A DNA stretch of 64,000 nucleotides from Opitutia bacterium (GTDB taxonomy: Bacteria; Verrucomicrobiota; Verrucomicrobiia; Opitutales; Opitutaceae), in assembly GCA_947472765.1 (NCBI GenBank), contig CANJCM010000009.1:28923-92922 (forward strand). The letters are read 5' to 3'. Positions 10,318 to 31,313 of this stretch are shown here, one piece after another (the first letter of the stretch is position 1; each line of letters opens with the position of its first letter). The position numbers were made by a program, and so were the translations under genes. The notes under the pieces were generated by a model. The model saw only the letters and a list, made by a program, of their open reading frames with translations. It made no database searches and was not told where the DNA came from.

Positions 10318-10614
10318 ATCGTTGCCGACGGAGTCGCCGCCGTCGAAGTCGCGACCTTGGAAAAATGGGACGCCATCCTGATGGATTGTCAGATGCCGGG
10401 CATGGACGGCTTCGAGGCCACCCGCCAGATCCGCACCCGCCTGCAGGGCCGCCCGCTGCCCATCATTGCCATCACCGCCAATGCGATGCCGGAGGATCGG
10501 GAGGCGTGTCTCGCCGCGGGCATGGATGACTTCATCGCCAAGCCGATTCGCCAGGAAGAGCTGCGCACGTGCCTGAAGCGCTGGATCCGGATTCCCGCCC
10601 CCGTTCGGGGCTGA
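10318..10614 (+). pseudogene. Remainder of the receiver domain beyond the in-frame stop
   Basis: This frame is a direct continuation of the hybrid kinase after TAG 10315-10317. It contains the missing parts of a canonical receiver: phosphoacceptor Asp in AILMDCQMPGMDGFEATRQI, the Thr in PIIAITANAM, and the conserved Lys in DFIAKPIR. Every key residue is intact, so apart from the single stop the domain looks recently functional. It could be a recent nonsense mutation, a sequencing error, or a read-through site. Independent translation is unlikely because the first receiver strand and its acidic pair lie before the stop. Confidence 0.75.
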
Positions 10615-10754
10615 GGCCGCATGCGGCGCCCACCGGGGCCTTTCGTCCAAGGGCGATCCGGGCGGCGACACCGAACAAAGACTTCCCCCATACCCGTGTT
10701 TCAGAACACCCGCCCGCGGCGACCGCCGGGGAAGTGAACCAGCGGGAGGCCGGA

Positions 10755-12005
10755 TCAGAGAGTCCGGAAAATCACCGCCGCATTCTGTCCGCCAAAGCCG
10801 AGGTTGTTGCTCAGGACCGCGCGGACCTTCGCCGCGCGCGCGACGTTCGGCACGTAGTCGAGATCGCACTCCGGATCGGGATCCTCGAGGTTGATGGTCG
10901 GCGCGATCGTTTGGGACTGCAGCGTCTTCACCGCGATCACCGATTCGACTCCGCCCGCGGCACCGAGCAGGTGGCCGGTCATCGACTTCGTCGAACTGAT
11001 CGCGACCTTCCGGGCGTGGTCGCCAAAGACCTTCTTGATCGCGAGCGTCTCGAACTTGTCGTTATACGGCGTCGAGGTCCCGTGCGCGTTGATGTAGTCG
11101 ATTTGTTCGGGGGCCATCGCCGCGCTCGCCAGGGCACGTCGCATCGCCAGCGATAGTCCGCGCCCTTCGGGATCCGGTTGCGTGATGTGATACGCGTCCG
11201 AGGTTGCGGCATAACCGGCCAGTTCGCAGTAGATGCGGGCCCCGCGGGCCTGGGCATGTTCGAGGGACTCCAGCACGAGCACGCCGGAACCCTCGGCCAT
11301 GATGAAGCCGTCACGCTGGCGATCAAACGGCCGGCTGGCCTTCTCGGGCGCATCATTGCGCGTGCTCATCGCCTTCATCGCGCAGAAGCTCGCGTAGGCA
11401 AACGGTGTGATCGCGGCCTCACTGCCACCCGCAATCATGACGTCGGCGTCGCCGCGGCGAATCGCATGGGCGGCCTCACCGATCGCGTGCGTGCCCGTGG
11501 CACAGGCGGAAACGACCCCGAAACTCGGACCGCGGGCGCCGTATTCGATCGAGACCAGGCCGGCACAAATATTGCCGATCAGCGACGGGATCGTGAAGGG
11601 CGAGACCTTGCGCGGCCCCCGCTCCGTCAGCACCTTGAGTTGCGACTCGTAAGTGTACATGCCGCCAATCCCCGAGCCGATGATGACGCCAACGCGATCG
11701 CCGTCCTCCTTCTCCATGTCGAGGCCTGAGTCCGTCACGGCCTGCCGGGCGGCTACAAAACCGAAATGCGTGTAGCGATCGTTTCGCCGCGCTTCCTTGG
11801 GGTCCATGTGCTGGGCGGCATCCCAGTCGCGCACCTCTCCGCCAATCTGGCTGGCGAACGGCGAAGGATCGAAAAGCGTGACGCGACTGACCCCCGAGCG
11901 GCCCGCCACCAATGAGGCCCAGAACGCCTCCACGTTGTGGCCAAGGGCGGCAACCGCCCCCAGACCAGTCACTACGACCCGCCGCGAGGAAGATGGATAT
12001 TCCAT
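10755..12005 (-). CDS. fabF: Beta-ketoacyl-ACP synthase II
   Basis: 416 residues from ATG 12005; a TTG three codons upstream (12014) is also possible. The Cys-His-His triad of condensing enzymes is present: C168 in [14 protein letters not shown]308 in [11 protein letters not shown] and H345 in [11 protein letters not shown]. FabF elongates acyl-ACP with malonyl-ACP in fatty acid synthesis and favours the C16:1 to C18:1 step. It is the last gene of the minus-strand set fabG-acpP-fabF. The spacers to acpP (99 nt) and from acpP to fabG (39 nt) contain no gene. It converges with the kinase remnant; the 140 nt between them hold a 12-nt palindrome (GCCGCATGCGGC, about 10617-10628) but no T-tract. 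Confidence 0.97.
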
Positions 12006-20199: not shown

Positions 20200-20868
20200 T
20201 TACGGGATCTTCTGCAGTTCATCCACTGTCCAAGGCTTCCGATCACCTTCCTTGGTACGAATCTCAGTCACCTTGGCGGTGGTCACCGGCGGGGCCTGAT
20301 TACCCCATTCCTGACGGACATAGGTCAGGACCGAAGCGACTTTATCGTCACTCCAGTTGAAACCCGACCCCGCCACGCGACCGAAAGGCGGCATGGCAGA
20401 ATTGTAATTCGCCCCGTTGACCGTAATCGGTCCCTGCAGGCCGTGCAGCACGATGCGAATTGCGCGTTCCTCGGAACCCGTGACCCATTCGGAACCAACG
20501 AGCGGCGGAATCGCACCCGGCTGCCCAACGCCGTTGGCCATGTGACAGGTGTTGCAGGCTGCGTTGTTGAATAGCTTCTTGCCTGCGACCACAGGATCGA
20601 CGGCGACGGCGGCCACCGCGCCACCTTTTACCGGGTGGGCATTCTCGTCGTAGATGTGCGGATCAAAATGCCCGGAATAGCGATTCAGGTAAGTGCCCGC
20701 GAAGAAGATCAAGCCGCTGAAGAGAAAGAGCAGATTAAGCGGGAGGAGTTTGTACCGCGCCTTCTCGTCAGGCTGCTTTCCGAGCATGGCCTCATGGACC
20801 GAGAGGAGACTCTCGTCGGTGACGGCGGCCTGGTCGATACGGGGATCTGAATTCAACGGCGCGCTCAT
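20200..20868 (-). CDS. Membrane-anchored monoheme cytochrome c (CcoP-like position)
   Basis: 222 residues. A cytoplasmic N-terminal segment is followed by one transmembrane helix (LLPLNLLFLFSGLIFFAGTY, about 41-60) and a periplasmic class I cytochrome c. The heme site is C105-N-T-C-H109, and the Met ligand is probably in NSAMPPFG. It is the last gene of the operon; its ATG overlaps the CcoO-like stop by 4 nt. In position it corresponds to CcoP, but it has one heme where CcoP has two. It probably passes electrons to or from the CcoO-like cytochrome and the ACIII complex; this is inferred from the operon. Confidence 0.85.
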   Translation of the reverse strand: MSAPLNSDPRIDQAAVTDESLLSVHEAMLGKQPDEKARYKLLPLNLLFLFSGLIFFAGTYLNRYSGHFDPHIYDENAHPVKGGAVAAVAVDPVVAGKKLFNNAACNTCHMANGVGQPGAIPPLVGSEWVTGSEERAIRIVLHGLQGPITVNGANYNSAMPPFGRVAGSGFNWSDDKVASVLTYVRQEWGNQAPPVTTAKVTEIRTKEGDRKPWTVDELQKIP

Positions 20869-21569
20869 TTCTTGGCCTCCTGCTTCATCTCACTCTTTGC
20901 GGCGGGCGCAGCATGGGTTTCAGCATGCCCGGCAGCCGGCGCAGCTTTGGCCGGCGGCGGCAGGGGACGTGATTCCGGATAATCGTAGGCCGTATTCAGG
21001 CTGAGGAGATAAGCCACGAGGGTCTGGGCACGTTCCGAAGGTACAATTTCGTGTCCTGCCGCGACCGCACCAGCTCCCGAAACGCGCAGCGCCCGGGCCG
21101 AAGACTCGCCGACGATCTGCTTCTCCACAAAAAGGAACTTGTAGGAAGGATGAGTCCCACTGCCCACGTAGAGTAACTTCATCAGGTCCTCGGAATCCAT
21201 CGCCGACGGCTTGCGTCCGGCAAGGTTGGTGAGATCCGGACCAATCCGCGAAGCGCCGAGCTGCGGACGGGCTTGATGAATATAATCACGCGCCACGCTC
21301 TGGCGGTCACCCCAACCGCGAGCCTGATCGGAACCGTAATCCGGCCGGCGAACCTGCTGGGTGTGACAGGCGGCGCAACCGAGATCCGCGTAAACCAACT
21401 GCCCGCGAGCCGCGAGGCCCGTGGTGCGCTCCGGAAAGGACTTACCCTCGGTATCGTCGTAGTACGGCGTCAAGGACCCGAGTTGGGCATGGGTTCCGAG
21501 GACAATGCCACCCCAGGACATGGCGATGGCGGCAAAAAGCCCGACGAGGAAGATGAAACCGTTCTTCAT
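20865..21569 (-). CDS. CcoO/FixO-like membrane-anchored cytochrome c
   Basis: 234 residues. An N-terminal transmembrane helix (FIFLVGLFAAIAMSWGGIVL) precedes a monoheme cytochrome c domain with C65-A-A-C-H69 followed by TQQVRRPDYGSDQARGWG, and IGPDLTNLAGR further on. This is a CcoO/FixO pattern. The C-terminal tail is Ala/Lys-rich with several His (HAETHAAPAAK). In cbb3 oxidases CcoO relays electrons from CcoP to the CcoN active site. Here the adjoining CcoN-like subunit lacks metal ligands, so the electron route must differ. The start overlaps the CcoN-like stop by 4 nt and its stop overlaps the next cytochrome. Confidence 0.88.
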   Translation of the reverse strand: MKNGFIFLVGLFAAIAMSWGGIVLGTHAQLGSLTPYYDDTEGKSFPERTTGLAARGQLVYADLGCAACHTQQVRRPDYGSDQARGWGDRQSVARDYIHQARPQLGASRIGPDLTNLAGRKPSAMDSEDLMKLLYVGSGTHPSYKFLFVEKQIVGESSARALRVSGAGAVAAGHEIVPSERAQTLVAYLLSLNTAYDYPESRPLPPPAKAAPAAGHAETHAAPAAKSEMKQEAKK

Positions 21570-22993
21570 GACGCGTGCGCCTCCAGCGCGGCAGGCTGAC
21601 GGAAAGCAGACTCGGCCGCAGCGGATGTGCCACAGCAGACAACGGCGCTCCGGATAAAGTTAACCAGGAGGAAAAGATTGGCGGCCAGAAGCGCGACGTT
21701 GGCCGCGGTGCCGATCATCAGCGACAGTTTCAGCTGGGTGTAAATCGTCCCCACGCCGAGCTTCGGATTCAAGAGTTCATCCCCCTGGGTCCATCCACCG
21801 ACAGCGAGCGTGACGATGAGCAGGACAACGCCGAGTGACACCAACACGCGATGTCCGGAGGTCAGAGCACCGGAGGCCCAAGGACGTCCCGTGAGGCGCG
21901 GCACCATGTAGTAGATGCCACCAAAGATCATCATCGAGATACCACCATAAAGACCCAGCTGTTCGAGTGCCGTTGCGAGCAAAGTGAACTGCCATTCGAC
22001 GGCGACTCCGCGGAAGGAGCTCAACGCGTCGAGCAAACCGGTGAGGGAATAGGCGACGAGGCCAAAACGAATGAAGCGAATCGCGGTGCCACTACCGTGG
22101 CTGGCAATTCTCAGGTTAAGCGCCACGACGATATAGTGGAAAAGCATCATCGAGCAGGCGACCACCGCCATGGTCGCAATCCACGCCGGAACCGGGCCGC
22201 CGACTAGGTGACGGCCACCCGTCCAGCCGCCGATAACAACCAAGGTCCAGAATCCGAGGGACGAGAAATCATAGCTCGGCATCGACCGACCCGCGACCTT
22301 GGGAACAATATAGTAGGCACCGGTCAAAGCGAGCGGAGCCAGCCAGAGCGACCAGAGGCTCTGCGTGTACCACCCGGCCGCCACGGCCTGGAGTGTCCCG
22401 CGAAGCGGGGCCCACAAGAGGACGATCTGCGCCGCAGAGAACAACCACGGGAAAAGAAAAAGAGCTGCAACACCGTACCACTGCGAGGCGTAAAGCCCAC
22501 TCGTCCGACGTCCACTCCAAGCCAATACTCCGGGGAGTGCGATGGCGCCGTAGGCGATTAACATCAAGGGCTGCACATAGCGCGGAAGCTGGAAGAAACC
22601 GAACGAAGTCATGTCGCCCGTCCCGATGCCGATCAGACCGATTGTCAGGCCGAGATTCCAGAAAAGCGCACCGGCAACCGCCCAGTTAAGAACACGCAAA
22701 GGGGAACCGCCGAGGCGTCCCAACACCCAAAGGGCGACCGCCAAACCGGAGTTCGCGATCCAGCCGTACAAAAAAGACGTCTCCCGAAGCGCCTGCGCGC
22801 GACCGAAGGTCAGAAAAGAGCAATCGGCCAGAAACCCGGGCGTGTGCAGCTGAATCGACGTAATCACGCCCAGCACCCCGCTGATCACGAGCCAAGCGAG
22901 ACCCGACGCGAGCAGGACGCAAAGCGGCCCGCGCGCCTGGGAGTCGATGGCAGTGACTTCGGCCGAAGTGGCGTGAGTCGAATCGTTGGTCAT
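21566..22993 (-). CDS. CcoN-like heme-copper oxidase subunit I homologue without heme/CuB histidines
   Basis: 475 residues with about 12 transmembrane helices. Landmarks of cbb3 subunit I can be recognised: FGRAQALRETSFLYGW (64-79), AYYIVPKVAGRSM (226-238), GGRHLVGG (259-266) and GGIYYMVPRLTGRPW (358-372). Alignment by eye to CcoN gives these changes: the low-spin heme His is R70; the WWYGHN CuB motif is WYTQSLWSLW; the CuB HH pair is R261-H262; and the HxH that binds both hemes is A340-T-A342. The protein has only seven His in total. It can hardly be a catalytic oxidase; a structural or quinone-binding role in an ACIII-cytochrome supercomplex is an inference. The stop overlaps the CcoO-like start. 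Confidence 0.88.
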   Translation of the reverse strand: MTNDSTHATSAEVTAIDSQARGPLCVLLASGLAWLVISGVLGVITSIQLHTPGFLADCSFLTFGRAQALRETSFLYGWIANSGLAVALWVLGRLGGSPLRVLNWAVAGALFWNLGLTIGLIGIGTGDMTSFGFFQLPRYVQPLMLIAYGAIALPGVLAWSGRRTSGLYASQWYGVAALFLFPWLFSAAQIVLLWAPLRGTLQAVAAGWYTQSLWSLWLAPLALTGAYYIVPKVAGRSMPSYDFSSLGFWTLVVIGGWTGGRHLVGGPVPAWIATMAVVACSMMLFHYIVVALNLRIASHGSGTAIRFIRFGLVAYSLTGLLDALSSFRGVAVEWQFTLLATALEQLGLYGGISMMIFGGIYYMVPRLTGRPWASGALTSGHRVLVSLGVVLLIVTLAVGGWTQGDELLNPKLGVGTIYTQLKLSLMIGTAANVALLAANLFLLVNFIRSAVVCCGTSAAAESAFRQPAALEAHAS

Positions 22994-23022: not shown

Positions 23023-23355
23023 TTACTTCTTGGCGCCGTACTTGGCCGCAGTGAGTTCCATCGCCCGGTCAATCGGGAGGCGCACGATTCCGGCTTTCTG
23101 GTCAACCCAGCCATACGAATTAGTCTGCTTGGCTTCGTTGGCGCGCAGGTCCTGCAGAGTGGCCCGACGAGCGGCATTGGTCGCCTTCCACTCGAGTTCC
23201 TTGGAGAGGTTTTCCGCAGCCGCGTTTTGAGGCGAGGTCGAGGTCGGGACGTAGAAGTGCCGCACCACGAAGACGAACGCCACAAACAGCGCCAGAATGA
23301 ACACGGTCGTGATCAACGAAACCGGGCGTGCCGGCGTGTCGGATGAATCACTCAT
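23023..23355 (-). CDS. Small single-TM protein of the ACIII/CcoN-like operon
   Basis: 110 residues. One transmembrane helix (LITTVFILALFVAFVFVVRHFY, about 14-35) is followed by a periplasmic or cytoplasmic helical part rich in Ala, Glu and Arg. The C-terminal segment SYGWVDQKAGIVRLPIDRAM looks conserved; I recall similar YGWVD...IPIDRAM proteins beside respiratory cytochromes in related phyla, but have not checked this. Its start overlaps the end of actF by 8 nt and the CcoN-like gene follows at 30 nt, so it is part of the operon. It may be an assembly factor or small accessory subunit; function unknown. Confidence 0.8.
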   Translation of the reverse strand: MSDSSDTPARPVSLITTVFILALFVAFVFVVRHFYVPTSTSPQNAAAENLSKELEWKATNAARRATLQDLRANEAKQTNSYGWVDQKAGIVRLPIDRAMELTAAKYGAKK

Positions 23356-24619
23356 GATGGGTCAGGCTTTCCGCTATGCGCGGGTCGCGAATGGGGATCA
23401 ACTTGGTGGTCGGGAAACTGCGGAGGTAAGCCCAAACGCAGACGCCACCGACGCCGGCCACGGAAGTGAGCACCCAGAGCAGGTTGATGGAAAGGAATGG
23501 GAGCGAGTCGCCGTGCGAATCCTTGAGCGCCGGAAGGACGTTGTAGCAGATGTCGATCAGGATGCTCGTCAGTATCGCGAGGGCGATGCGCCGGATGATG
23601 TGCGGTGTAACCTTGAAGCGATACGACAACAGGGCGAAGAACGGCAGGAAGAAGTGGCCGAAGAGAATAACCAGTCCGACGTACCACCATTGGTTGGTCG
23701 TACCGTCGTGATTCAATTCACGCAGGTTATACCAGAAGGTTTCCTCGGGCACGTTCGCATTCCAGATGAGGAAATACTGCGAGAAGGTCACGTAGGCCCA
23801 GAACACCGTGAAGGCGAGCATGAGCTGGCCGATGCTGTGAAAGTGATTCGAGTTCAGCACGCCCTTGTAATTTCCCCGGCCGAGCAGCCAGACCATGATC
23901 AGCACGCCGCAGCAAAGTGCACCACGGATGCAATTCGCAAAGAACCAGACACCGTACATCGTCGAGAACCAGTGGTACTCCAGGCTCTTCACCCAGTAGA
24001 TGATGGCCGCCGTGAGGGTGAGGGCCACGATCGGCAGGCCAAACGCCGCCGTCTTCCGGTTCATGAAGGTCCAGCGGGTGTCGCCGTCCGCATCCTGCGA
24101 GAACGACGCTTTCCGCAGGCGGGCGGAGATCCAAATCCAGAGGAGAAAAAATGCGGCCGTACCGATGACGAAGGCCCGAACATTAAGAAAACCTTCCTTC
24201 TTTAGGTAAAGCGGGTCGTGGCCGACAGTGTGGCCGCCATGCAATTCACGGGCCGTGTTCATCCACGGCCAAACCAGATCCGATTGGTAGAAGAGCGAGA
24301 CGAGGATCAGCGGCAGGAAAAGCACGCCGAGCCACCGAAAGGCCATCAAGCCGTGTTCCCACTGCCGGCGAATCACCACCGACCACGAAGCATCGACGAT
24401 ATGGTGAATCAGGATGAGCAGCAGCATGCCGAGGGCAATGGCTGTCCAGTAGGTGAGCCCCACCAGGTAGGAGAGTGCCACCGCCGAAGCAGGTGAAACC
24501 AGCAGCCCGAGCGCGGTGGCAGCGAGGCCGATCAGCCCAATGACGAGTGCCCGGCTCGCCTCAGGGGCGGCGGAGGACTCGGCCGGCATGGCCGTGGCGG
24601 TGACAGCGTGAGAGCTCAT
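23348..24619 (-). CDS. actF: Alternative complex III membrane subunit ActF
   Basis: 423 residues with about 10 transmembrane helices, NrfD/PsrC-like. Segments such as ILIHHIVDASWSVVIRRQWE and the FSQYFLIWNANVPEETFWY loop are typical of ActF. ACIII oxidises menaquinol or ubiquinol and reduces cytochrome c or an oxidase, replacing the bc1 complex; ActC and ActF are the two quinone-related membrane subunits. The first 4 nt overlap the end of actE (ATGA). Some His and Asp residues in the helices could serve proton conduction, but no site can be assigned from sequence alone. Confidence 0.92.
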   Translation of the reverse strand: MSSHAVTATAMPAESSAAPEASRALVIGLIGLAATALGLLVSPASAVALSYLVGLTYWTAIALGMLLLILIHHIVDASWSVVIRRQWEHGLMAFRWLGVLFLPLILVSLFYQSDLVWPWMNTARELHGGHTVGHDPLYLKKEGFLNVRAFVIGTAAFFLLWIWISARLRKASFSQDADGDTRWTFMNRKTAAFGLPIVALTLTAAIIYWVKSLEYHWFSTMYGVWFFANCIRGALCCGVLIMVWLLGRGNYKGVLNSNHFHSIGQLMLAFTVFWAYVTFSQYFLIWNANVPEETFWYNLRELNHDGTTNQWWYVGLVILFGHFFLPFFALLSYRFKVTPHIIRRIALAILTSILIDICYNVLPALKDSHGDSLPFLSINLLWVLTSVAGVGGVCVWAYLRSFPTTKLIPIRDPRIAESLTHHE

Positions 24620-25269
24620 TGAATCCCGAGAGTTTGCCGCGCCGCGGCATCTGTAACATCAGCAGCAGTGCCTTGATGGGCCCGCTGCAGGGCGCGGATG
24701 TAAGCGACCACCGCCCACCGGTCGGCCGGCTCAAGCTTGTCGGCGTAGGGCAGCATGACCTTGCTGACCGAGCCGTTGGTAATCGTGTTGAAAAGCTCGC
24801 CCTCGGTCATGTTGCGAAGACGATCCGTGTGATAGTTGCCATTGGTGGTCAGCGACCCCATCCCGTAACGCAAGGTGATGCCATTGCCGTCGCCGGCCGC
24901 CCCGTGGCAAACCTGGCAATAGATCGTATACCGATCGCGGCCGCGCTCCAGCAATTGACGGTCGACGGCGATGGCGGCCGGGAAAGTCTTCACCCAGGCG
25001 CCCGCAGCGTCCTTGCCACGAAACAGGTGATCGTCTTCCGCGAGCATTCCGCGCATGACGGTATTGGCCGGCGGCATCCGGTCGGCGCGGCCATCCGCGA
25101 AAAATTCGCTGGAGGACTGCGGGCGGAACTTCGGCTGATACTTCATGCCCGGGAATGCCCACTCCGGGAACACATCAAGTGGCGGAGAGGTGAATGCGAC
25201 GCCCCGCAGTCCAAGGATGGACACGAGCAACGCGGCAACGAAGAGAGTGACGAGGTAGACGTGGCGCAT
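24616..25269 (-). CDS. actE: Alternative complex III monoheme cytochrome ActE
   Basis: 217 residues. The N-terminal hydrophobic segment LVTLFVAALLVSILGL anchors or exports the protein. The heme c motif is CQVCH near residue 120 (RYTIYCQVCHGAAGDGNG), followed by a possible Met ligand in SKVMLPYAD. The FPGMKYQPKFRPQSSS region before the domain is typical of ActE. The cytochrome is likely to carry electrons from the ActA/ActB part to the terminal acceptor. It starts 2 nt after actD and overlaps actF. Confidence 0.92.
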   Translation of the reverse strand: MRHVYLVTLFVAALLVSILGLRGVAFTSPPLDVFPEWAFPGMKYQPKFRPQSSSEFFADGRADRMPPANTVMRGMLAEDDHLFRGKDAAGAWVKTFPAAIAVDRQLLERGRDRYTIYCQVCHGAAGDGNGITLRYGMGSLTTNGNYHTDRLRNMTEGELFNTITNGSVSKVMLPYADKLEPADRWAVVAYIRALQRAHQGTAADVTDAAARQTLGIQ

Positions 25270-25271
25270 GG

Positions 25272-25805
25272 TCAGGCCTCCAGCTCCGAAATCGCACGTC
25301 CCCCGGCCTGCTCCAGCAGCGCCTTGGTATTCGCGAGGTTGAACCGGGGATCCCGGGCTTCGATTACAATGAAGAAGGTATCGTCCATCCCGCGCCGGAT
25401 CTGATCGTACTTCAGGACCGGGTGGTAATGCATCGGCAGTCCGTTAACCACGAACATGCCAATGATGGTCGCGAAGGCAGTAAACAGAATCGTGAGCTCG
25501 TAGCTCACCGGGAAAGCGAACATCGGACTGAACAACGGTTTTCCGCCCACCACCAACTGGTAGTCAACGGCGCCCGTCCACCAGATCATCGTCATACCGG
25601 TAAAGAAACCGGTGATGCCGCCGGCGAGTGAAATGCGGGGGACAATGGAACGCTTCAGGCCCATGGCTTTGTCCAAGCCGTGCACCGGCATCGGCGTAAT
25701 GCAGTCCCAGTGCCGGAAACCGGCATCACGAACCTTCTCCGCCGCGTGATAAACGTCACGGGCGGTGTCGAAGCTGGCAATCAGGCCGTAAAGTGGTGCA
25801 GCCAT
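25272..25805 (-). CDS. actD: Alternative complex III subunit ActD (DUF3341)
   Basis: 177 residues from ATG 25805, which lies 7 nt after the actC stop; the in-frame ATG at 25853 would overlap actC by 41 nt and add 16 polar residues. The protein begins MAAPLYGLIASFDTARDVYHA, the family start, and has two transmembrane helices (ISLAGGITGFFTGMTMIWW and ELTILFTAFATIIGMFVV) joined by a short loop. ActD is a small membrane subunit of ACIII whose cytoplasmic domain packs under ActC/ActF; it binds no known cofactor. Confidence 0.9.
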   Translation of the reverse strand: MAAPLYGLIASFDTARDVYHAAEKVRDAGFRHWDCITPMPVHGLDKAMGLKRSIVPRISLAGGITGFFTGMTMIWWTGAVDYQLVVGGKPLFSPMFAFPVSYELTILFTAFATIIGMFVVNGLPMHYHPVLKYDQIRRGMDDTFFIVIEARDPRFNLANTKALLEQAGGRAISELEA

Positions 25806-25812
25806 GGTGGAA

Positions 25813-27255
25813 TCAGTGGGCTTGGCCCGAGGAGCCTTCGTGGGCGTGGACATCGGCCTGCGGAGTCACGGCCTTGAGTTCCGCCATCGGCATGACCGGC
25901 AGGAACCGGATGAAGAGCAGAAAGAGCACGGAGAATACGCCGAAGGTCCCAAAGAAGGTGAAGATTTCCACGATGCTGGGCGAGTAATAGCCCCAGCTCG
26001 ACGGCAGGAAGTCGCGGGCGAGCGAGGTCACGATGATGACGAAGCGCTCGAACCACATTCCGACGTTTACGAAAATCGAGAGCACCCAGACCATCGTGGT
26101 GTTCTGACGCACCTTCTTGAACCAGAAGAACTGCGGCGTGATCACGTTGCACGAGATCATGATCCAGTAGGCCCACGCGTAGTGACCGAAGGCGCGATTG
26201 ATGAAGGCGAACCCTTCGTACGGGTTCGTACTGTACCACGCGATGAAGAACTCCATCCCGTAGGCGTACCCGACGATCGTTCCGGTCGCCAAAGTGATCT
26301 TACACATGCAGTCGATGTGGTACTGCGTGATCAGATCCTCGAGTCCGTAGATGGCGCGCAACGGCAGCATCAGCGTGAGTACCATCCCGAAACCGGAGAA
26401 AATGGCGCCAGCGACGAAGTAAGGCGGGAAAATCGTCGTGTGCCAGCCCGGCAGCAATGAGACGGCGAAGTCGAACGAAACGATCGTGTGCACCGACAGC
26501 ACCAGCGGCGTCGAGATGCCGGCGAGGATCAGGTACGCCATCTCGTAGTTGCTCCAATGACGGTTCGACCCACGCCAGCCCATCGCGAAGAGGCCGTAGA
26601 GGAAGGAGCGGAATTTGTTTCCGGCGGCGTAGAAGCGATCGCGCAGCACCGCGAGGTCAGGTAGAAGTCCGATGTACCAGAACAGGACCGAAACCGTACC
26701 GTACGTCGAAACCGCAAACACGTCCCACTCGAGGGGCGAACGGAAGTTCTGCCAGATGATGTTCGAGTTCGGAATCGGGAAGAGGTACCAGGCGTACCAA
26801 ACGCGACCGACGTGGAAGACTGGGAAAATCGCCGCACAGACGACGGCGAAAATCGTCATCGCCTCGGCCGCACGATTGATCGAGGTGCGCCATTTTTGCC
26901 GCAGGAGACAGAGAATGGCCGAGATCAGGGTGCCGGCGTGGCCGATGCCGATCCAGAAGACGAAATTGACGATGTCCCACGCCCAGTTGACCGGATTGGC
27001 GTGACCCCAGACGCCGACGCCCGTGGCGACGAGGTAGGTGATACCCCCGACGGTGAAGCAGGCGATAAACGCGGCGACCGCGAAACACACCCACCACCAA
27101 GTCGGAGTCTCGTCCTCAATGATCCCGCAAATCTTGTTCGTGATCCAGGAGAAGCTGCGGTTGTTCTCAACGAGCACCGCACGCGGGAGTACCGCGGGGT
27201 TCACTTCCCGAAGGATGGCCGGAGTGACGGCGGAGGAATCGGCGACGTGAGCCAT
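25813..27255 (-). CDS. actC: Alternative complex III membrane subunit ActC (NrfD family)
   Basis: 480 residues with about 10 transmembrane helices. The N-terminal [20 protein letters not shown] and later [39 protein letters not shown] and [20 protein letters not shown] are conserved in the NrfD/PsrC quinone-site subunits of ACIII. It is thought to hold the quinol oxidation site next to the ActB iron-sulfur arm. It follows actB by 51 nt. The C-terminus ends in a His-rich tail ([12 protein letters not shown]). Confidence 0.94.
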
Positions 27256-27306: not shown

Positions 27307-30300
27307 TCAGTGCCCACCCTTCTTGACTTCGGTGTCATGGCCGCCGGCATGCGGAGCCGCCGCCTCGTGCGCGCCACCGTGGGTGTCCGGCACGTTTTTC
27401 TTGTTATACTCCACCCGGCTAAGCGGGAGGCTGCCATAATCCGGCATCTTGGGATTGGGATTCCTCAGCTTGCCCGAATAAGTGGTCCGCGGGCGGGTGT
27501 TGAGATAACCCAGTACCGCATAATCCTGCTCCCGGGCCTTCGCCTTCGAGACCGCGCTATTGGGATCGAGAATGTTGCCGAAGACGATCGCGTCGACCGG
27601 GCAGGTCTGCGCGCAAGCCGGCTTGACCGCACCATCGGGGACGACGACGTCACCCGGGCGGCCGGCTTGGGTCATCTTCACCTTGTGCTGAATCTTGGCG
27701 TTCTGGATGCGCTGCACGCAGTAGGTGCACTTTTCCATCACGCCGCGCATCCGGACCGATACCTCGGGATTCTTCGCCATCTTCACGAGTTCCGGCATGC
27801 CGAAAGGAGCAAGCTGGCCCATGTAGAGCTGGTCGAGGGAGCGCTGATTCCAGTCGAAGAAGTTAAAGCGCCGGACCTTGTACGGACAATTGTTCGCGCA
27901 ATAGCGGGTACCGATGCAGCGATTGTAGGCCATGACGTTCAGGCCTTCGTCGTCGTGCACGGTCGCATTGACAGGGCACACCGTTTCACACGGCGCCAAC
28001 TCGCAATGCACACAGGTCATTGGCTGCAGCGAAATCTGCGGATCCTCCGGCAACTCGCGATTGCCTTCGCCGCCGAATGCCCCGGCGTCTGCCGTCCCGC
28101 TGGAATAATAGCGGTCCAAGCGGATCCAGTGCATCTCGCGACCCCGCATGACCTGCTCCTTGCCCACGATCGGAATGTTATTTTCCGCCTGGCAGGCCAC
28201 CACGCAGGCGTTACAGCCGATGCAGGTGTTGAGGTCGATCGACATGCCCCACTGATGGTGACCGTCGAGCTTGGGCGTCTGATAAAGGGAATTGCCGCGC
28301 GGAATCTGCGTCGCCCGCTCCGCCGGCGTCATCTTTTCGCCGTATTCGCCCAGAATTGTCGGGGAGTGTGACTCCATGCCGATCTTCGTCACGAAAGCCG
28401 GATCGTCCTGGTAGCTGTTCGCGCCTTCGTAATTGGCTTCGCGAACGATATCACGGCCTTCCATCGACCAGTGCTCCTGGGTGTTCGCAAGCAGCATGCG
28501 GTCACCGGTAGCCGTGAGCTTCCCACCTGTCGCGACGTTCATCGCGCCCGAGGTCCGCAGCGCGTAGCCGTTAAAGCCGGCACCCTTGCCAACGTGACCC
28601 GCCACCGTCCGGCCGTAGCCGAGCGGAACGACAATCGTGTAATTCGAGAGACCCGGTTGGATGTGCACCGGGCCGCGAATCTTGCGGCCACCCACCGTCA
28701 ATTCGAAGACGTGCGCGTTTTCTTTACCGATGCTGAAATCGTTTTCTTCCTTCCGGACGACTTGGATCAGGGATCCCTTCGGATCGATGCCGAGATCCTT
28801 GCCGAGGCGGGGACTCACCAGGATCGCGTTGTCCCAGGAAATTTTCGTGATCGGATCCGGACACTCCTGCAGCCAGCCGTTGTTGGCAAAGCGGCCATCA
28901 TCCATCTTGTGGTCGGCCACAAAACGGACCTCGAGATTGTCCTTGCCCAAGGCCACCGGCGTGGAGGACCGGAGGAGCGCCGTGACGCCCTGACGGTTGA
29001 AATTCACCGTAGCCTTCTCGTAGGCGGAACCCGCGATCAAGCCGTCGTGCAGGAACCGGCGAACGGCCTTTTCGGCATTCGCCCCCGCCGTGGCGGAAAT
29101 CGTCTCAACGACCAACGCGTAGGCATCGGCGGTAGCGTTGCCAGCAATCCGCGCCAGCACTTCGATCTGCGTCAGCCCGCCAAAAAGCGGGAGAATCATC
29201 GGCTGAATCGCCACGATCGTACCGTCCGCCGTGCGGGCATCGCCCCACGACTCGAGGTAGTGCGCGGCCGCGAGATGCGTCACGTTCGCCGCCGAGGAGG
29301 TTTCGTCCAGGGAGTAGCCGAGACGGACGACTTCGCCGACGCTCTTCTGCAGCGCAGCCCACTCGAGGTCCGCCGGCGCATTGTAGGCCGGATTGCCACC
29401 GAGGATGACGAGCGTGCGGATGGACCCGCCCTTGATGGCAGCGGCGAGTTCAGAGATGGACGCCGCGGAAGTAGCGGGAACGCGCACCAGCTCCAACGTC
29501 TGGCCCACATTACCGAGGGCTGCGTTGATCGCGTAAGCCAGAGCGTGCACTTCGGCCGGGAGATGCGCGCCGGCGACCACGAGGGACTCACCGCGATGCG
29601 CCAGCAAATCCGCGGCACATTCGGCGACCCACTGCGGCTTGACGTCGAGGCCGGCGCCCAGCGCCTGCACCGAACTGCGGAGATTGGAATCCACGGCGCC
29701 GGCCAGCTGCGCCGCCAGAGCGAGCATGTGGCTGGTGGCAAGCCGCAGGCGGTGATCCGCCATGCTGCCGGTGAGCGTCAGCGCGCTCTCCGCCACATAC
29801 AGGCGGTTCATGGGATCGTCCTTCTTCGCCACCCGGCGGCCCTGGGAGAATGCCCGGGCGTAGGCGAGGCTGCCGGCTTCGGCATGCAGGAAATCGCAAT
29901 CGAGCGAAACAATGCGCTTCGCCTTGGCGAAACGGTAGACCGGCTTCACGCCGGCACCAAAGGCAGCCTGCGTCGCCGCGACGGGCGCCTCGTCGGAAAT
30001 CGGCTCGTATTCCGACCAGATCGCACGGGGAAACTTGCTGCGCAATGCGGCCACGAGGCGGGCGCGGGTCGGCGACGACGATTCGTCCGCCAGAAAAGCG
30101 AGACCGGTGCCCTGGTTCGAGGCGTAGTTCTGGCCAATGCCGGCGAGAAGCGCGTTGACTGCATCCGCCTTGATGATCGCTCCACCCTTGGTGTGGGCGG
30201 TCGAGCGATCCGGATCGTAAAGATCCAGCAGGGATGCCTGGGCAGCAAGCGAAGCCGCGCCACCATGCGGCTCGTAGGTGGGATTGCCTTCGACCTTCGT

Positions 30301-30663
30301 CGGACGGCCTTGATGGGTTTCCGCGAGCAGCGGGATGGCCCATTTGCGCACCGGAAAAGCGGTCGCGTAATATTGGGGAAGACCGGGAATGACCCCCTCG
30401 ACCGACTTGCCGAATGGCAGGATATTGCGTTCCGGGCGGCGGCAGCCCGCCACGCCCACTCCACCGAGCGCAAAAGACGCCGCCATCAACTTCATGAACT
30501 GCCGGCGATCAACGCCCGTCAGCTCCGAAGCACCTTCGGGAAATTCGCGCTGCAACTGCGCCTTGAAACCGGGCGTTTCGGCCAGTTCGTCGAGGCTGCG
30601 CCAGTACTTGGGCCCGGTCAGCTCGCGTTCAGAAGGCGCCGGATGTTCAAATTTGCGTTTCAT
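27307..30663 (-). CDS. actB: Alternative complex III molybdopterin/iron-sulfur-type subunit ActB
   Basis: 1118 residues. A Tat-like N-terminal segment [17 protein letters not shown] (about 52-68) precedes a molybdopterin-oxidoreductase-like domain; in known ACIII complexes this part binds no molybdenum. The C-terminal third carries four Cys clusters: [11 protein letters not shown] near 811, [13 protein letters not shown] near 886, [11 protein letters not shown] near 921, and CTYC with CAQTC near 979-1018. These hold the [3Fe-4S]/[4Fe-4S] chain to the hemes of ActA. The length fits a fused ActB1-ActB2. The start overlaps the actA stop by 4 nt. A large open frame on the opposite strand is a shadow. 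Confidence 0.96.
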
Positions 30664-31313
30664 CGATGACAGCCGGAACAGCTTTCCGGGGCCTTGACCT
30701 TCCAGTTGTGCAAGAATTCCTGCGCGTCCTTTTGACGCCCCTGTTCCGCCAGCGTCTTCGAATCCAGATTGAAGACATCCTTCGGGTCGCGAATCCGGTT
30801 TTCCGGATTACGATGGCACTCGATACAAAACGCCATGCTCAGCGGCTGCGCGTGGCGGACCGTATCCATTTCGTTGACCTTGCCATGGCACTCAACGCAC
30901 GAAACGCCGCGGTTTACGTGGATCGAGTGATTGAAGTAGGCGTAATCCGGCGTCGTGTGAATCCAGACCCACGGAACCGGTGTGCCCTTTTCGTAGCTCT
31001 CGCGCACCGGGGCCAGCAGCGGGCTGGTGGCCTTTACGACGCTATGGCAGTTCATGCACGTCTGCGCGGTGGGAACGTTGGAATGGCCGGACTTGTCGAC
31101 GTTCGAGTGACAATAACGGCAATCCAAGCCGACTTCCTGGACGTGCTTGGCGTGGCTGAAGGGCACGGGCTGGACCGGCGCATAGCCGACCCGCGTGTAC
31201 TTCGGCGTCATGTAGTAGGTCACGCCGGCGGTGGCGATCCCGACGAGCACGCCCAGATAAACGATAATCTGGAGCGGCAGCTTGTTGACCGACTTCGGGA
31301 AAAGTTTCGACAT
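30660..31313 (-). CDS. actA: Alternative complex III pentaheme cytochrome ActA
   Basis: 217 residues. An N-terminal transmembrane helix (LQIIVYLGVLVGIATAGVTYY) anchors a periplasmic domain with five CxxCH sites: CRYCH, CMNCH, CVECH, CIECH and CSGCH, the last only one residue from the C-terminus. Several extra His (HAKH, HSNVDKSGH, HTTPDYAYFNHSIH) can serve as distal ligands, as in the cytochrome c7/NapC-like fold. It collects electrons from ActB. It is the first conserved subunit in the operon and overlaps actB by 4 nt; a small leader-like gene lies 27 nt upstream. Confidence 0.95.
   Translation of the reverse strand: MSKLFPKSVNKLPLQIIVYLGVLVGIATAGVTYYMTPKYTRVGYAPVQPVPFSHAKHVQEVGLDCRYCHSNVDKSGHSNVPTAQTCMNCHSVVKATSPLLAPVRESYEKGTPVPWVWIHTTPDYAYFNHSIHVNRGVSCVECHGKVNEMDTVRHAQPLSMAFCIECHRNPENRIRDPKDVFNLDSKTLAEQGRQKDAQEFLHNWKVKAPESCSGCHR

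Follow-up and report, generated by a model that had tools for sequence, protein, structure and literature searches.

A ligand-less homologue of cbb3 oxidase subunit I within an alternative complex III operon of Opitutaceae

The 64,000-nucleotide stretch of an Opitutia bacterium genome analyzed here (contig CANJCM010000009.1; hereafter the window) encodes, on its minus strand at 21566..22993, a 475-residue homologue of CcoN, subunit I of the cbb3-type cytochrome c oxidases, which lies within an alternative complex III (ACIII) operon and has kept only one of the six histidines that serve as metal ligands in that family. By sequence this protein, CcoN*, is a CcoN homologue: its open reading frame matches Pfam COX1 at 95.4 bits against a cut-off of 34.8, and cbb3 CcoN chains are its top solved relatives in a comparison with the PDB. 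It scores 79.2 bits on the NCBIfam ccoN equivalog TIGR00780, below the cut-off of 583. An AlphaFold2 model superimposes on cbb3 CcoN at 1.8 A over 438 residues, and the fold of cbb3 subunit I is thus predicted to be retained, in keeping with the initial annotation of this DNA, which had recognized its landmarks.

Ligand sites were read from an alignment with the same genome's own cbb3 CcoN (L002), which has all six histidines, and with PDB chains; the site numbers (H60, H207, H257, H258, H345 and H347) we take to be those of P. stutzeri, H60 being countable in the PDB-chain alignment, and the active-site tyrosine is presumably residue 251. In CcoN* these positions read R70 for H60, Q211 for H207, R261 for H257, L343 for H345 and Q345 for H347, while Tyr251 is replaced by G255, leaving H262 (site H258) as the sole ligand histidine. 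The annotation's statements that all but one ligand histidine are lost and that the protein holds just seven histidines are therefore borne out, although it had misplaced the H345/H347 pair at A340-T-A342 instead of L343/Q345. A shift of the ligands to new positions can be rejected, since among the seven histidines (7, 50, 262, 286, 299, 381 and 473) only H262 aligns to a ligand site. Nor are the substitutions a matter of chance, because they are nearly universal among 145 close rows (120 database proteins of at least 61% identity and 25 loci, some duplicates included): R261 occurs in 145 of them, G255 in 144 and Q211 in 143. His286 (window 22136-22138) occupies a position that is proline in ligand-bearing relatives and is itself found in 144 of the 145 close rows. 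A CcoN-family protein without heme and CuB ligands is not expected to act as an oxidase, and the loss of catalysis in CcoN* is, as judged from its residues, near certain.

The operon that surrounds this gene runs entirely on the minus strand and begins with ActA to ActF in order; the initial annotation had recognized it as an ACIII operon. ActA (30660..31313) is a multiheme cytochrome c named by position, ActB (27307..30663) has molybdopterin-like and Fe-S domain matches, ActC (25813..27255) matches the NrfD family and ActD (25272..25853) matches PF11821 at 214 bits; an ActE-like monoheme cytochrome c (24616..25269) and an ActF-like membrane subunit without a Pfam or NCBIfam match (23348..24619) are again named by position. 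Next comes a small protein of 110 residues (23023..23355), probably membrane-anchored and likewise without a Pfam or NCBIfam match; a homologue occupies the corresponding position in 15 of 20 order-level loci. Downstream of CcoN* are CcoO* (20865..21569), a FixO/CcoO-like monoheme cytochrome c with a CAACH motif, and a membrane-anchored monoheme cytochrome c (20200..20868; CNTCH, axial methionine present) that is weakly CcoP-like. The genes on both sides had been described as overlapping, which is true of CcoO* (4 bases) and not of the upstream gene, from which CcoN* is separated by a 29-base gap. ActA-F, CcoN, CcoO and the cytochrome are all present in this order in 19 of the 20 order-level loci, the exception (L046) lying on a contig that starts just before ActC, and ActABCDEF-CcoN-CcoO-cytochrome c is the usual arrangement of the operon in this bacterial order.

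Among 57 genomes from the genus, family and order, 48 gave a match with an E value of at most 0.001, in some cases only to the ordinary cbb3 gene. In a survey of 135 genomes of the order with completeness of 90% or more, 92 carried ActD and 93 an operon-type CcoN, the latter including all 92 with ActD; the single mismatch is G072, whose CcoN lies on a cut 5-kb contig. The ligand state of these proteins is divided. Six histidines and the tyrosine are intact in 9 of the 20 order-level loci and not in the other 11, and across all 101 classified loci (these 20, a further 80 and the window) 48 are intact and 53 have lost ligands. The initial proposal that the subunit had been recruited to ACIII consequently needs correcting, as there are relatives in which this operon encodes a CcoN with every ligand in place; ligand-bearing relatives include Coraliomargarita and Cerasicoccus (L085, L102 and L104). 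Ligands have been lost in ten family groups (f1, f2, f5, f8, f9, f11, f12, f18, f19 and f24), three of which (f1, f11 and f24) hold intact CcoN as well, and in all 24 same-genus loci, one of them (L028) partial. The residues at the lost sites vary by lineage; in the order H60, H207, Y251, H257, H258, H345, H347 they read, for example, QQAHHHN, YGGARHF, AAGVNQQ, QQAASQQ or RQGRHLQ. One genome, G059, contains, besides a ligand-less CcoN within the ACIII operon (L179), another CcoN-CcoO-cytochrome set whose CcoN is fully liganded (L180, G059:C93:34600-49500, CcoN at about 10370-11974), the latter being the one intact locus at which adjoining act genes were not found.

The order in which the ligands were lost can be glimpsed in a scan of named genomes, in which 77 of 80 loci were intact; these are the best 80 of at least 575 confirmed matches, chosen by likeness to an intact protein (the first query row was ligand-bearing), and the figure is accordingly biased and not a frequency. 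The remaining three have lost the CuB side alone (HHYSHHH, HHQRHHH and HHSARHH), which suggests that His257 and the tyrosine can be the first to go. That the copper site goes first as a rule is rejected, however, by f2, which keeps H257 and H258 without the low-spin heme ligands, and by L181, which keeps H257. The f2 loci (L042, L195, L197-L206 and L212, the last of which does not cover the first site) retain H257, H258 and H345 and have lost H207, the tyrosine and both low-spin heme ligands (QQAHHHN); three ligand histidines are present in 12 of the 13 rows and two in the other, L206, which has N for H257. This fixed partial site might still bind metal. All 13 of the f2 loci also have cysteine at the axial-methionine position of CcoO.

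Loss of the ligands has not been accompanied by a complete loss of constraint. The ratio of nonsynonymous to synonymous substitution (dN/dS) was 0.020-0.224 in eight ligand-less pairs, 0.118 between the window protein and its nearest relative, and 0.014-0.074 for intact CcoN (7 of 8 pairs computable, with dS saturated in some). In 39 columns, conservation reaches 94% or more among the 50 ligand-less rows (about 15 lineages); of the 118 columns invariant in intact rows, the sites of H60, Tyr251 and H347, together with adjacent positions, are among those that differ most often when ligands are lost. No internal stop codon was found in any listed CcoN match from the scans of relatives' genomes. 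Ligand-less ccoN is therefore under purifying selection; decay to a pseudogene can be rejected, given this evidence and the retention of the gene, just as the initial annotation had maintained.

The partner cytochromes provide a second view of the module, counted here by row and not by event. A CxxCH motif is present in all 100 CcoO rows (47 intact, 53 ligand-lost) and all 96 cytochrome c rows. Residue 109 of CcoO, in the RTGPDL motif, is threonine in 45 of 47 intact rows and in just 2 of 53 lost rows, most of the others having Ile, Val, Leu or Phe there. Those two rows, L173 and L175, are sisters, and L173 retains four of the six ligand histidines (YHTRHHH). The axial methionine follows a similar course, being present in 47 of 47 intact CcoO rows and 30 of 53 lost ones, and for cytochrome c in 43 of 43 and 47 of 53, respectively. 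In CcoO* this position is occupied by histidine, as it is in all 23 other same-genus loci, whereas the sister-genus locus L027 has methionine; the replacement is itself conserved in two lineages, as His in one and Cys in the other. The conserved histidine of this genus would be expected to give a bis-His heme of lower potential. CcoO thus changes in step with the ligand state of CcoN, which fits continued contact, and because its residues co-vary with that state, docking of the CcoO-like cytochrome on CcoN* is plausible. For quinone binding, the other role suggested by the initial annotation, no evidence was found, although no test was aimed at it.

Given that ligands have been lost in about half of the loci while the gene is found in every related ACIII genome, CcoN* is likely to be a scaffold and not an enzyme. 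Our best reading is that an oxidase of the cbb3 type, linked to ACIII, gave up its former function and that its subunit I turned into a metal-free scaffold for a relay of CcoO and cytochrome c. The relatives whose copy of the operon has a CcoN with all its ligands suggest this origin in an ACIII-linked oxidase; we consider it somewhat probable that CcoN* holds the CcoO-like and CcoP-like cytochromes c on ACIII in this way. According to this model, CcoN* would bind neither heme b nor CuB, would take the place of the oxidase on ACIII, as in known ACIII supercomplexes, and would hold CcoO* and the membrane cytochrome c as the electron exit. Electrons from menaquinol would then pass by way of ActA/ActE to the heme of CcoO* and that of the membrane cytochrome c, and from there to a separate terminal oxidase. 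The genome of the window does encode another COX1-family protein (L001, 517 bits; A-type in our reading), as well as a fused cbb3 oxidase (L002) and a cytochrome b.

Several observations weigh against this picture. Ligand-less CcoN has a dN/dS about twice that of intact CcoN. At the axial position, 22 of the 53 ligand-less CcoO rows have a residue other than methionine (Cys in 13, His in 4 and others in 5; one further row has a gap), as do 6 of 53 for cytochrome c. This speaks against the relay being unchanged in those lineages, and some lineages keep a partial site (QQAHHHN, Y-x-GARHF), so that the term metal-free may not fit all of them. Furthermore, the presence of another heme-copper oxidase showed no association with ligand loss (46/48 versus 40/43 genomes, p = 0.66) among 91 of the 93 CcoN-bearing genomes, G045 and G091 being omitted for fragmentary genes; compensation by another oxidase is thus rejected as the driver of loss. 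Two ligand-less genomes, G072 and G153 (91% complete), showed no other heme-copper oxidase. Last, the assembly of CcoN*, CcoO* and ACIII into one complex is a prediction from the co-occurrence of their genes. In the same 91 genomes, an intact CcoN is the only heme-copper oxidase in G046, G108 and G154, which count as one event because all belong to one genus; G041 (80% complete, intact CcoN) likewise showed no other heme-copper oxidase in a separate scan.

How often the ligands were lost depends upon the tree that is consulted. A tree of ActA-F from 21 operons requires 8 changes of state, 7 of them forced by its starred branches, and a quick tree of ActB, ActC and ActF from 97 operons requires at least 13, with 11 or more forced by starred branches; if changes are counted strictly as losses, the latter gives 15 independent losses, or 13 or 12 when branches under 80 or 95 are collapsed. 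Trees of other single genes of the operon require 6 (CcoO), 9 (cytochrome c), 12 (ActF) and 14 (ActE) changes. The CcoN tree itself, by contrast, needs only 3, and 2 in its 30-row version. We therefore put the number of losses at three or more, and at roughly a dozen should ccoN have followed its operon. On the latter reading, an ACIII oxidase module would have become a metal-free pseudo-oxidase about a dozen times in one order, the copper site going first in several lineages and the hemes next, while the scaffold and its cytochrome c relay persisted, with a relay heme re-tuned by a change from Met to His or Cys; we put this forward tentatively, at a little short of even chances. If it is correct, the module could do without O2 reduction but not without electron export.

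A less probable account, although one to be taken seriously, arrives at the same end product through few ligand losses followed by the spread of a ligand-less ccoN allele among ACIII operons by gene replacement. The low count on the CcoN tree speaks for it, and the 30-row CcoN data reject a clade that unites the family's intact and ligand-less rows (approximately unbiased test, p-AU 0.001) without rejecting a single clade of all ligand-less rows (p 0.23). In the Act data from 21 operons, however, the grouping of all ligand-less operons as one clade is rejected (p-AU 5.7e-6), and replacement would demand the swap of a 1.4-kb gene inside a tight operon, though the ligand-less lineages are at most about 54% identical to one another. 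The CcoN tree also joins long branches, and its low count could come from these together with shared relaxation. Removal of the state-linked columns raised the number of changes from 3 to 7, 8 and 11, compared with 3-5 upon random removal, but it would weaken a true clade too, and the stripped trees were not clearly nearer to the operon tree, a result that may lean towards replacement. By identity, the nearest ligand-bearing relative agrees with the prediction of the operon tree for 9 of 16 lineages, several of these being near ties, and disagrees for the remaining 7.

It is improbable that CcoN* is instead an altered redox subunit that carries a cofactor, whether one heme on new ligands, a non-heme metal or a quinone site. 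The conservation of His50 and His381, the new His286 and the ligand histidines kept in f2 could be taken to favour such a role, but His50 and His381 are common to ligand-bearing relatives as well and hence cannot count as new ligands, H262 itself has given way to another residue in 3 of 25 loci from the genus and its sister genus and in 62% of the 50 ligand-less rows, and no second conserved histidine stands at a ligand position in the alignment. That CcoN* is a slowly decaying relic, retained only through its position inside the operon, is very improbable, since the roughly two-fold relaxation relative to ligand-bearing orthologues is outweighed by the uninterrupted frames, low dN/dS, conserved columns and presence in 92 of 92 ActD-bearing genomes described above.

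Heme-copper oxidase subunit I is commonly taken as evidence of aerobic respiration. Of 970 database relatives of CcoN*, 120 were listed, with Horticoccus and Opitutus, of the window's group, named among them; the listed proteins that bear a name from their source are called cbb3-type cytochrome c oxidase subunit 1 or I, save for one hypothetical protein (P0076), so that oxidase genes may be over-counted in these bacteria. To our knowledge, no heme-copper oxidase pseudoenzyme has been described, and we found no description, by title or abstract in the open-licence literature, of a ligand-less CcoN or of a cbb3-type CcoN within ACIII operons. The fold and the operon are of known kinds; a ligand-less heme-copper oxidase subunit I kept in ACIII operons is undescribed in the open-licence literature found. 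CcoN* resembles cbb3 CcoN (e.g. PDB 3mk7) in fold, length and its neighbouring CcoO-like and cytochrome c genes, but shares only about 21% identity with it and lacks five of the six ligand histidines and the active-site tyrosine. Oxidase-derived genes also follow the act genes in the ACIII-oxidase clusters and supercomplexes of R. marinus (ACIII-caa3) and F. johnsoniae (ACIII-aa3), although there the oxidase is of the catalytic aa3/caa3 type whereas here it is cbb3-derived and ligand-less in about half of the loci examined (PMC5928083, PMC8552683). For R. marinus, the fitted oxidase lies next to ActC and its heme-c domain adjoins the ACIII cytochromes (PMC5928083). ActF, which resembles PsrC/NrfD but lacks the quinol site found in ActC, is likewise a membrane subunit of this complex that has kept its fold without a cofactor site (PMC5928083), although its fold is a different one and CcoN* comes from a terminal oxidase. 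Pseudoenzymes in general share the loss of catalytic residues with conservation of the gene (PMC10211241). If CcoN* is indeed a scaffold, the operons form a natural series, from CcoN with all its ligands through loss of the CuB side to loss of most or all of the ligands, in which the non-catalytic role of the oxidase fold in ACIII can be approached; the same series bears on the exit of electrons from ACIII, which is still under study (PMC8552683).

Other oxidase genes were encountered in the genomes surveyed. Three of them (G029, G070 and G032; loci L216, L217 and L218, respectively), in which the ACIII-linked CcoN is ligand-less, have an extra COX1-family gene in a frame of 550-634 residues, the product of which shares about 31-34% identity with ligand-bearing CcoN from this order; the frame that follows it has two CxxCH motifs and is possibly a CcoO-CcoP fusion. 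In G070, G075 and G101 a second ActD-family gene lies near another COX1-family gene, perhaps as part of a second ACIII operon with a different oxidase.
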